DNA of 50,000 nt from Bolinopsis microptera (Eukaryota; Ctenophora; Tentaculata; Lobata; Bolinopsidae): the NCBI RefSeq assembly GCF_026151205.1, contig NC_087079.1, positions 15,680,445 through 15,730,444 of the forward strand. Direction: 5' to 3'. Positions 3,601 through 36,000 of the stretch are shown here, one piece after another. A model generated the notes under the pieces. It was not told the DNA's origin. It made no database searches and saw nothing but the letters and a program-made list of their open reading frames with translations. Every line of letters starts with the position of its first letter. Position 1 is the first letter of the stretch. The translations under genes and the position numbers were made by a program.

Positions 3601-6600
3601 ATAACTACAAACAAATTAAAAATGGTTACACAATATTGGTTGTGTTGAATTTTAATTTTCTAAGTTACCAACAAATAAATAACTCGTTATCCATAATAGA
3701 TTGATGGAACAGCGTTATAGTTATGTAGTTATATGCAGAGCAAAATATTATCTTACCGCCAATTTTAGCTTCTGCGTTGAACTGACTCTCGCCGTGTCGT
3801 GAAAGGTAGAGCGTAGTTTTGGTATGAGGTCGGATATTCATCAGGAAATAGGCAGACTTCGACTGTACCGTACCTATCGTATAATTAATAAGAATTACCA
3901 ATAAAGTGTCGACGCACAAAATGGAATTAAGAAATAATATACTATGTTATCTATGTTTTTGTGGTAAACGGTCTACTGTATCATTTGCGGTTTGGATATC
4001 AATGTTTTAAAATGAAAACCCTTCCTCCCAACAGCATATGAAACTGTTATACATGAACGGCTACAATACATGATATACATGATTAGTAAAAGAGACAAAC
4101 AACACTAATATGATTGGAGCGAAGTCGCGCCTAATTATCAACTAACACTCCTTCATAATACGTTCCAACTTATAACATAAGCCCAACCAAAAGAAGAAAA
4201 TACGTCAGCTGGAACTAAAATTGTAAACAAGAAATGTGGTGCAAGATAAATATACGCTTTATTTATAGAATAATTGTGCACGTATCTGACAAATACAATG
4301 TGCAACTGTGCAGCGTACTAATTAGGTTGAAACGGTGTACTCTGTCTTTATCAAAACCAGGTACAACTTATCGCGGTACAAATTCAATGAAATACAAGAA
4401 TTATTCTAGATACGTTTTATTGAGGGTAATTCCTGGAATATTCTATAATTTTCTGATAGTACGAGGTTTGCAAAAATTTAATTATATTTTGAAAATTTCA
4501 TTATGATTTGTAAATTCGGTACTGAAGCAACTATGGATATAATATAATAAGGATTCTTATGACTTTTGTACGTCTTGCAGTGTAGGGTATGGAAAGGTAA
4601 AGCAATAATGTGACGAACGGTATTGGGGGAGCTTATCAACAATAGAATTATAAATCAGAAAATTCGAGTTTGTAAACATGGGGTATATCTTGGAAATTTG
4701 TTTATATTTCCTGTTACTCGGGGTAACGCGTGATGGCGGTTTACAAATTTGACGTTGCCAGTTGCAAAGGTTTTCAAAAATCAAAAACTTACATCATGAC
4801 TTACTGGCGAGGTTATTGATGTGAAACTGAGTGATATTAGAAACTCTAATAAATGACAGTTCTCTATCCAGATTAAGACACAGTGCCTCGTAAGCCTTTT
4901 TGTAGTTCTGGATCCGTTCTGAGAAGTCCTTGAAAGCTGCATCAGGGTCACATCCCTGGTAGTCCGGACAACGGACCTTGTGCTCCTGAGGGTTATACAG
5001 TACTTTGAACACAACGGACCTTGTGCTCCTGAGGGTTATACAGTACTTTTAACAGGGAAGATAACGGACCTTGTGCTCCTGAGGGTTATACAGTACTTTG
5101 AACACAACGGACCTTGTGCTCCTGAGGGTTATACAGTACTTTGAACACAACGGACCTTGTGCTCCTGAGGGTTATACAGTACTTTGAACACAACGGACCT
5201 TGTGCTCCTGAGGGTTATACAGTACTTTAAACAGAACGGACCTTGTGCTCCTGAGGGTTATACAGTACTTTAAACACAACGGACCTTGTGCTCCTGAGGG
5301 TTATACAGTACTTTAAACACAACGGACCTTGTGCTCCTGAGGGTTATACAGTACTTTGAACAGGGAAGATAAAAAGAGAAACCAATACGGATAACATAAA
5401 TCACTGCAGCTAGACTGAGACTGAGAAATAATTTTGTTTCAAAAACTTTCATGTACTGAAAACAGTGAAAGTTTCGCAAGTTTAAATAGTTAACAGTTGA
5501 ACAACTTTTAAAACTGCACTCAAACCCACCTACCCTAATATTCATCTCCTCAATCTGAACATCGTCCAGTACACTCTCAATAAACAGGACCTGGATACCT
5601 TCTGGTGTGATCTTCTCTAGAATGAGATCCCTGCGGTCCCGAGTCGTGTTCGTTGCGTCTAGAATCTGAAAAAGGGGGAAAATCAATATTAGAGGGGTCG
5701 TTATTTTATTATGTAATCACGGATGGGAGTTCGACTGGGGAGGGAGGGGGTTTCTAAATGATTAATATTTATGCTGTGTGTATCTAATCATCATCAGTTA
5801 TATATTGCATTTGGAAACGAAGGGAAACACGCAATGTTAGGCTTCAATCCTTCGTTAATAAACTAAATCTTTAGAGCCTATAAGTCCCCCATAATCAGTT
5901 ATTATTTTGATTACTCACTTATACATTTTGATCACGAAAAACCCCTAAGCTACTAACACTTCTAAAACTTAAAATTGAAGTTTTGCAGGCTCCATAAATC
6001 ATATTCTACATTCAAAGAAACCATGATTAACTTGGCGCTCAAATTAGTATGTTAATTAAAAACTACCTTTGGAGCCGTTGAAACGCCTCACATCATAATA
6101 AATTACTAAATTACTTGGTCCGCCCGGTAATTACAGACTACAAAGAGAGGATGCATATCAAAAAAGGAACCACGGAGCCCAACTCATTACTGCAGCTGTC
6201 TGCAGCTTTGAGAGGTTCCTTGGATCTTGTGAATAATCATTAACCTGGTTAGTAAGCGGCGATAATATATTACTGTGATCCTTTACCCCCCCCCCCCCCC
6301 CCCCCTCAGACTGCTTGACGATCTAAATGCTAATAAGACAAGAAAAAAGGAGTTATATAGATGTAGCAGCTATTGTCAGATGAAAACCTGCCGTTCAATA
6401 TTTAACAACCCAGAAGGTAGATGAGTTATGAGGGTCCGGGTGAGAGTCTTCTTATTCTTACTGGCTGGCTGGAGGCATGAGCAGATATACGGTGTTGTGA
6501 TTGGGTGGATCCACGTAAAACCACGTGGTAAGGGTCTCGGCACAATTAGCTAGCACAGTTCCTGCCCTCATTTCTCATTAGCTCAGTTCAATTAAACCGC

Positions 6601-33000: not shown

Positions 33001-36000
33001 TCAATAAATGCAATATATTTGTAGTGTTGACATAATTAATCCAAAACGCCTACTCTAATTATAACTCTAAACTCTAAACTCGTACTCTAATTATAACTCT
33101 AAACTCTAAGTTCCCAGTCTCACCTCCGGGATAATATCCACAGTAGAGTAAGCGTCTCTAGTGAAGCAGAACTCTAATTATAACTCTAAACTCTAAACTC
33201 GTACTCTAATTATAACTCTAAACTCTAAGTTCCCAGTCTCACCTCCGGGATAATATCCACAGTAGAGTAAGCATCTCTAGTGAAGCAGAACTCTACCTCC
33301 ATGCTGCTCTTGCCTTTCAGGACCACCTTCAGGCTCAGGGTCCGCTGGAAGTTGTGTTCGTCTCCCTGGACCCGTCCTCGCACCTGCACAGTACACGTGG
33401 TTATATTTGGAATTACAAATATTTTATTGAATTATTGTGTATCTTGTATAAATAGAAATGTATACATAAATAAAAACAAGACGAATGTTGTCTTCAGAAA
33501 GTGTGATCAGTCAATATCAATGGAACATTAATGGAACATTAATGGAACATTAATGGATCATTAATGGAACATTAATGGAACATTAATGGAACATTAATTA
33601 TGGAACATTAATGGAACATTAATGGAGCATTAATGGAACATTAATGGAACATTAATGGAACATTAATGGAATATGAGATCACTGTAAATTTCTCCTTCAT
33701 ATCGCCATCAATTCTTAAAATGTGTATTTAGTAAATTAGAATACTCTGTAGTCTGCAATATCAGACGTCTGTAAACTGCATATTCAGTCATATAATATAA
33801 TGTAATTAATACTATTCAGTGTATACACTGAATAGTGAATATAAGTACATACTATATTCTATACACTATATATTATACACTATATAAAACACTATATTAT
33901 ACAGCCATTGTGCAAAGTGGAGTCATCATTTTTGTGCAAACGTAATCATATTATATAGATATAAATAGTTTTAAATGATTTAACATCACAGAGCTGGTAC
34001 CCGTGGAGATCAATATTTTCAATAAGTCGATTCTCAACAGCCAGTAGACACCAAAGCGATTATTGACCAATTAGTGACCAATTAGTGAGTGCTTACCAGC
34101 CAGTAGTGACCAAAGAGGTTGAATTTAGAACTCTCGTAGAACAGTTGTGGGATGAAATCATCTGTTCTGTGCGGCGACAACACTATATCTGAAAATTGAT
34201 ATGTGTCAAAAACTTTACTCTTATCTAGGGTAAGGACATTAATGTGCATTAATGGGCATTAATGGGCATTAATGGGCATTAATGGCAATGGCAGTCTGAG
34301 CAAAATTTTAAAATACTGCCATTAATGCCCGTCGGTACCCCCACCCCCCCCACCCCCCCCCCCCCCCCCCCCCCCCCATAAAACCTCATCACCGTACTTG
34401 CAAACAACCAAATGAAACCTATACCAGACTCATGGATGTGGATTACCGTTTACACGTGACAGTTATTTGACAGAGTTTTTTAACCAACAGTAGGAGCTGA
34501 TTGGATAATTGCCGTCACGCGACGAAAAATATTCCCATCTATTATCTATGGTAGTGATAATTATATCCCGGAATATTTCTTTATAGGTGGATAAAAGGGA
34601 CTAGATATCGGTGGTGATAACATGCTTCACTGCTTCAGGTTGGTTGCAACAGAATGCCACTAGCAGGTGCAATGTACGCTGTTCATTAGTTATCGTGTGA
34701 ATTGTTATTTGAGCATGGAGACTCAAAGATACGTAAATAGAGATAATGAAGAATGAGTTAAGTTCTCGTGGGACCTAAAGATAATAGTATACTAAAGAAA
34801 TGAGAGATAGAAAGAAATATGTGATTTTTGCTAAATCATAAAATGCCCGTTTTGGGCATGTCTATATTACCTGATTTGGACGACAAATCTTTTGGGAGTA
34901 GCCCTTATATATAATTTCGATAATCCGTTGATAATCGTGTCGCTCATACGCAGAAAAAAGCTTAACCTGGTAACCTTGTATAACCTGGTAACCTTGAAAC
35001 CTGGTAACCTTGTTGCCTGCACAGAGCAATTCTACCTGCACATTTCTCAATGAGTTATACCATCAGCTGATTTGCAGATCTGCAGGTATCTGCAGTGCAG
35101 TTAAACTATCTGCAGTGCAGTTAAACTATCTGCAGTGCAGTTAAACTATCTGCAGTGAAGGCCAATAAATTTGGAACGTAAATGGTTTTTAGAAAGGACC
35201 ATTTGGGAACTTAAAATGATATTTAAACATGATCCACCTTTTTAGAAGCGAAAATTTGATTTTACAAGTTCGACTGGCCAGTTTTCTTTTCAAAATATCT
35301 TTAAAATATAGCCGTTTTCAAACTACATAAACTGTCACTCGATATGCAGTTCTGAAATTTTGGTACTAAAGTTTCAGCAGACAAGTTCCAAAGGCCCGAT
35401 ATGATAGCTCAAACATCATTCATGTGCAATGATTTTTCACAGGGGATCAATAATTCATTTATTGAATGTATCAAGTTTGACCGTAGGTGTACATTACTGG
35501 GATGTTTACATGAAATACTGCTGAAAATGTTTTCTTGATGTTCAACATTAACCGTGCAAATTTCCCAAATTGTATTAGCAGTACCTCCATTGCATAACAG
35601 TACCTTAATAAACGTATATTTGAACATGCTAGACTTGTAAGCTTACCTGTAAAGAAGAGTTTAGCGTGGCTCATAAAGCTTGTGACACTCCTGAATCTTC
35701 CAATCTGAGGAAACAAAGCTGACTTATCTGAAAGTTATAATTTTAATTAACTATAAACTTGATAATATTACGTATGGTGGGGAGGCGATATCTTCTGTGT
35801 ACTAAACTAACCTGATCGTCATGCTTTCTGTCGCTCTTGTTTATATGTGCGATGATGTCACGTGCGGGGCGGTGCTGAAAGTCGCACTCGTCCGCATGTT
35901 GGTGAGAGGAGTGGGAGGCACCAGTCCATGTGCACCCAACTTTAATGTACGTGCAGTTAACTGGTCTGAAATAGGACGGGTTGTGAACTCAGAACTGTAC

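Follow-up and report, generated by a model that had tools for sequence, protein, structure and literature searches.

Tandem arrays at splice junctions in the window

The window analysed here is a 50,000-nucleotide (nt) stretch of the genome of the ctenophore Bolinopsis microptera (NC_087079.1, positions 15,680,445 to 15,730,444), in which tandem arrays lie on or against the splice junctions of several genes. Repeats were called with Tandem Repeats Finder (TRF), which returned 61 rows covering 8.7% of the window bases. We placed 44 junctions in four genes, namely PFKFB, a receptor gene in which one Sushi domain was found, and two genes for which we use the provisional names GPI-CCP (CCP below) and CYHR1 from an earlier note on this DNA; the window may hold more. 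Placement relied on reading frame, GT/AG dinucleotides and phase rather than on RNA, and for PFKFB (- strand) also on tblastn with the human enzyme, one exon matching solved PFKFB chains. At nine of the 44 junctions, the intron carries an array no more than 25 nt away. The earlier note had counted about seven such coincidences among some 25 junctions. All seven are present, with no junction more than 1 nt away from the position given; the total of 25 proved too low.

Three of 32 arrays in the window span a junction. One, at a PFKFB acceptor (4968..5362, - strand; first exon base 4985), comprises 9.0 copies of 43 base pairs (bp) according to TRF, in agreement with the nine copies read previously, and is supported by the reading frames and by column conservation over the nine copies. 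Its unit consists of 25 intron nt and 18 exon nt and carries TATAACCCTCAG|GAGCACAAG. The protein across the 4985 join matches NI-M-EVKISSPDY of the human enzyme. The CCP acceptor is covered by a duplication of 24 bp (14904..14953, - strand; 2.1 copies) that reaches 5 nt into the exon starting at 14908, and a CYHR1 donor by a duplication of 119 bp (33052..33295, - strand; 2.1 copies) that reaches 53 nt into the exon ending at 33243.

Elsewhere the array stops short of the splice site. In the receptor gene, about seven units of 32-33 bp (11087..11328, + strand; TRF and sequence) precede an acceptor that had been described as the last of seven units; the unit number holds, but the array ends 3 nt before the exon start at 11331. 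The pyrimidine tract of this acceptor comes from the last unit of the array, which contains CACTGTTTCAG where an inner unit has CACTGTTTCAT. The array before a CYHR1 acceptor (27158..27456, - strand) ends 2 nt ahead of the acceptor, with the exon starting at 27156, and contains 26.7 copies of an 11-bp unit by TRF instead of the 16 units proposed; the unit is ATATAACCTCA and the acceptor AATAACCTCAG. The acceptors at 11331 and 27156 both look like the last unit of the neighbouring array with one base changed. On the donor side, 4.0 copies of a 32-bp unit (12882..13009, - strand) begin 13 nt into the CCP intron that follows exon base 13022, and a minisatellite with a 70-80-bp higher-order unit of 10-bp repeats (16837..17317, - strand) begins 10 nt into the PFKFB intron behind exon base 17327. 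Two shorter TRF calls complete the set: a C-rich array (2812..2848, - strand) situated 21 nt from a PFKFB acceptor (exon start 2791), where the pyrimidine tract would be, and an AT-rich repeat of 2 x 14 bp (13906..13933, - strand) located 25 nt into the intron behind the CCP donor at 13958.

Placement of arrays in an independent sample

Within the window itself, which is the discovery set, nine of the 32 arrays come within 25 nt of a junction, where 3.2 would be expected (P = 0.0006). An independent sample was assembled from five gene families (myosin, kinesin, dynein, adaptin and TCP-1), with introns defined by homology instead of RNA. The assembly (264.65 Mb, 232 contigs) yielded 35, 73, 29, 67 and 109 exon matches for the five families. 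Of these 313 matches 238 were entered, and 236 fall in 47 stretches (181,747 bases) that were picked for dense exon clusters before their repeats were looked at. All but one of 150 profile-adjoining exon pairs could be solved as in-frame GT/GC...AG introns, of which 131 were kept and 18 failed a quality filter; nine more introns from the sampled loci left the array count at 48. TRF repeats cover 11.7% of the sample bases and 13% of its intron sequence. They are not compositional, as 161 rows were called in the real sequence versus one in a single Markov shuffle of the sample.

For the null expectation, the unit of each array was dropped uniformly so as to overlap its intron. An array adds to the length of the intron it sits in, and for this reason we preferred this question, which concerns the place of the unit before expansion. 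Across the 131 introns, 11.3 of the 48 arrays would be expected within 25 nt of a junction and 19 are found there (P = 0.0023); for a distance of 10 nt the figures are 7.7 expected and 12 found (P = 0.048). Strong arrays, defined by a TRF score of 80 or more, show the excess more sharply: 13 of 19 are within 25 nt against 5.7 expected (P = 4e-5, or about 1e-4 after allowing for the choice among four distances, not for that of the score cut-off). When any one locus is left out, P stays at or below 0.012 for all arrays and 0.0008 for strong ones; for any one gene family the corresponding limits are 0.026 and 0.0008. Putting the 18 filtered-out introns back gives 65 arrays, 21 of them within 25 nt against 13.3 expected (P = 0.005). 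The excess is likewise found among arrays of at least 100 bp (9 of 13 against 4.5; P = 0.002) and among strong arrays whose introns exceed 250 nt with one unit (8 of 13 against 1.9). Those strong arrays that have fewer than three copies, and are presumably the youngest, all lie within this distance (five of five against 1.5; P = 4e-4), which argues for favoured birth over growth up to the exon. The claim that arrays sit closer to junctions than random placement would have them thus extends, by unit placement, to genes that the earlier note had not seen; it does not extend to tests by base coverage or circular shift, which are weighed below.

Individual loci illustrate the scale of the duplications. 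One kinesin intron (L065) begins with a 33-bp unit that bears a donor and is present in 52 copies, the donor ACTTG|GTAAG being exact in 50 of them; the intron measures 1,818 nt and would measure 105 nt with one unit. In a dynein gene (L042), 12 copies of 65 bp begin 51 nt inside the exon, with GAG|GTTAG in every copy. At two other kinesin loci, a 21-bp unit with TTTTCAG|GAGG is repeated 24 times ahead of an acceptor (L067), and an array of a 13-bp unit, in about 22 copies, begins exactly at a donor (L058). At all four loci the conserved protein is continued from the copy next to the exon, and the exons at six array-bearing junctions of the sample encode what we take to be conserved kinesin and dynein motifs (such as AINTSLSELGNVMMAL, SSRSHAVF, LQDSLGGNS and NLKSLFRPVAM). 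Six sample arrays span a junction, five of them at donors. Their units of 33-109 bp hold local exon sequence and therefore arose in place; with a single unit, their introns would still measure 105-1812 nt. By TRF, and by column conservation in six arrays, the arrays consist of head-to-tail, near-identical copies of roughly 10-100 bp, as minisatellites do.

Two further observations concern the sampled motor genes. The dynein paralogues L042 and L048 carry donor-spanning duplications with different units at about the same intron position; they start in the exon, 51 nt (L042) and 53 nt (L048) ahead of the donor. In one copy of a kinesin gene (L054, contig C13), an intron contains a 0.93-kb insertion (840-1772) whose inverted ends are mostly 11-bp tandem repeats; it has an apparent 8-9-bp target duplication and is absent from the 98-99.9% identical copy L053. 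A 103-amino-acid frame within the insertion has no Pfam match; it appears ISXO2/Merlin-like.

Fate of the spare copies and age of the introns

The earlier note had proposed selection for decoy sites. For all six donor-spanning arrays (five from the sample and that of CYHR1), reading on from any further donor copy found runs into a stop. One of the 21 further donor copies in L058 stays open, and all eight upstream acceptor copies in PFKFB lead to a stop. The second acceptor copy in CCP is in frame and open and would add eight residues. The acceptor-frame check of L067 could not be read, with a stop even at the true site and a stretch that perhaps overran the exon end. Column conservation in the spanning arrays shows GT/AG conserved like their neighbours, nearly all unit columns being invariant. 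The spanning arrays are therefore young or homogenised, and neither purging nor keeping of decoys is shown; as a test of decoy selection, column conservation was set aside as uninformative.

The earlier note had also suggested that introns were created by duplication, which finds no support at the two positions that could be judged. To within two residues, the paralogues L049 and L073 have introns at the positions seen in L042/L048 and in L070, respectively; these introns measure 158 nt and contain no array found by TRF. This recurrence suggests that at both positions the intron predates the array. As to R-loops, also proposed there, no sense-strand G excess was found in the arrays: the pooled skew is -0.19, with nine introns positive and 14 negative of 26.

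Interpretation and alternative explanations

We propose that local tandem duplication is biased to exon-intron borders and tolerated as the exon-proximal copy stays intact, a reading to which we assign about an even chance of being right. Minisatellites would begin as local tandem duplications of roughly 10-120 bp and then expand, exon-intron borders receiving about twice the births expected under uniform placement. A duplication covering or abutting a junction would be tolerated, since the copy nearest the exon always leaves one junction complete; the other copies would stay intronic as inert copies of the splice signal and lengthen the intron. To judge from the reading frames, the exon-proximal copy is probably the one used, so that an intron may hold up to about 50 spare splice-signal copies of which probably only the exon-adjacent one is usable. 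We infer that the excess arises at birth and not via selective retention, the spare copies being retained neutrally. A bolder version, in which a process coupled to transcription or splicing directs duplication to junctions and introns grow by stacking their own splice sites, the exon-proximal copy being chosen by position, appears unlikely.

Several results weigh against a border bias. Within the 10 intron nt closest to a junction, arrays cover only 5.6% of bases on the donor side and 1.4% on the acceptor side, compared with 13% of all intron sequence. Under circular shift there is no excess within 25 nt (19 junctions against 23.2 expected) and a deficit within 5 nt (9 against 19.3; P = 0.0035). 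By unit placement, spanning arrays are not clearly in excess (6 of 48 against 5.3; P = 0.44) and are borderline among strong ones (6 against 3.1; P = 0.05); no clear excess appears within 5 nt for the 48 sample arrays (9 against 6.5; P = 0.17), for arrays shorter than 100 bp within 25 nt (10 of 35 against 6.9; P = 0.095) or for myosin genes alone (2 of 10 against 1.6), and weak arrays show little excess. The main result depends on just 19 strong arrays, selected by a score cut-off picked after a first look, and on splice sites inferred through homology, not RNA. Genome-wide, the donor word AGGTAAGT in three tandem copies has 1212 matches and its reversed word 11, and control words of the same composition reach 1426 and 254, so that donor words do not stand out.

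Circular shift was set aside as the main test: when kilobase arrays are wrapped around, a single array can reach both ends of its intron, and we think that such arrays, filling introns, dominate this test. A block-placement null (19 against 7.8 expected within 25 nt) was replaced by unit placement, since it bars spanning arrays and so overstates the excess. The triple-word counts were rejected as evidence of splice seeding, as a few large satellites dominate them; the triple acceptor word has 186 matches versus 84 for its reverse, and the single donor word 10764 versus 7968. Among the matches listed, a 32-bp satellite unit with AGGTAAGT occurs at C1:36576-37703 and C1:761375-762150, and another array, with a spacing of mostly 54 bp, at C1:428574-430927. 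Donors in the sample introns seem loose, with many GTTTGT, GTACNN and GTTAGT beside GTAAGT.

The main rival to a border bias is that exons act as a fence: births would be uniform, and arrays would creep outward until selection on the splice signal or the exon halts them, piling their edges beside exons. The excess of non-spanning edges (13 within 25 nt against 6.0 expected; P = 0.003) is what such a fence would produce, as is the low array coverage of the 30 exon nt adjoining junctions (1.7%). Yet strong arrays that have barely grown, with fewer than three copies, show a like pattern in five of five cases, and spanning arrays cross the splice site into the exon, so we regard this explanation as rather unlikely. 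Chance alone would have much to work with in a genome that is about 10% tandem repeat (TRF coverage of 8.7% in the window and 11.7% in the sample), and the coverage-based and circular-shift tests are without excess; it nevertheless strikes us as quite unlikely given the unit-placement values in independent loci (P = 0.0023 for all arrays, 4e-5 for strong ones), which survive the omission of loci and families.

Duplication might instead be directed by splicing or transcription, with R-loops, cutting or template switching at AG|GT copying splice sites specifically. The excess near junctions, the five of six spanning sample arrays at donors and the different-unit duplications in the two dynein paralogues point this way, but the arrays lack a sense-strand G-skew, the spanning class is just borderline in excess, two of the three spanning arrays in the window are at acceptors, and one control word is found in triplicate more often than the donor word; we find this explanation distinctly improbable. 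We consider it very unlikely that decoy or alternative splice sites were selected for, or that introner-like elements arrived and brought splice sites along. Copies do retain intact GT/AG, the second CCP acceptor copy is open and in frame, and some arrays ride on inserted elements, such as the L054 insertion that L053 lacks. Against this, nearly all unit columns of the spanning arrays are equally conserved, use of decoys mostly yields stops, and the spanning units are made of local exon and intron sequence.

Relation to known systems

Intronic minisatellites have units of about 10-120 bp and near-identical copies. The arrays described here differ in that they prefer splice junctions. Internal tandem repeats at the exon-intron boundaries of human duplicated genes have been reported to yield novel introns and alternative splicing (PMC2812944). 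As in that study, the repeats lie on the boundary and vary in number between paralogues; here, however, introns are extended, two positions recur array-free and copies number up to 52. Intron gain in which a stretch carrying splice signals is duplicated in tandem (Rogers 1989 and Hellsten 2011, as cited elsewhere) is alike in that one copy becomes intronic, and the 24-bp multi-copy cases of fission yeast within that literature look similar; by contrast, our introns exceed one unit and give no evidence of a new intron. Introners (PMC9860276) share repeated sequence at intron ends, whereas the spanning units here are local sequence. Among the matches listed in a literature search, no title names a splice-junction bias of ctenophore tandem arrays.

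Should the bias hold genome-wide, intron growth would gain a definite local mechanism. The arrays would also provide natural experiments in splice-site choice, since dozens of donors or acceptors stand in a row, nearly identical, and nearly all but one of them would break the protein; the birth rate of junction duplications would become directly measurable between individuals.

Other features of the window

The 11.7 kb (5665-17327) between two PFKFB exons that were found hold both the receptor gene on the + strand and the CCP gene on the - strand. Tblastn with the human enzyme did not reveal the small PFKFB exon, about 22 residues long, that is expected in this interval. Between two CYHR1 exons lies a frame for a rhodopsin-type seven-transmembrane receptor (30990-31895, + strand; Pfam 7tm_1, E = 2e-17). 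The ctenophore Hormiphora is reported to have a TRF repeat content of 13% and many genes that lie within introns of others (PMC8527503), and such nesting seems to occur in this genome too. A retroelement reverse transcriptase frame is located at 39192-40547 (Pfam RVT_1, E = 8e-16). Finally, an inverted repeat at 21623-22260, with arms of 74-99 nt that are 90-97% complementary and hold 14-bp tandem repeats with palindromic stretches, is possibly a short element similar to the L054 insertion.

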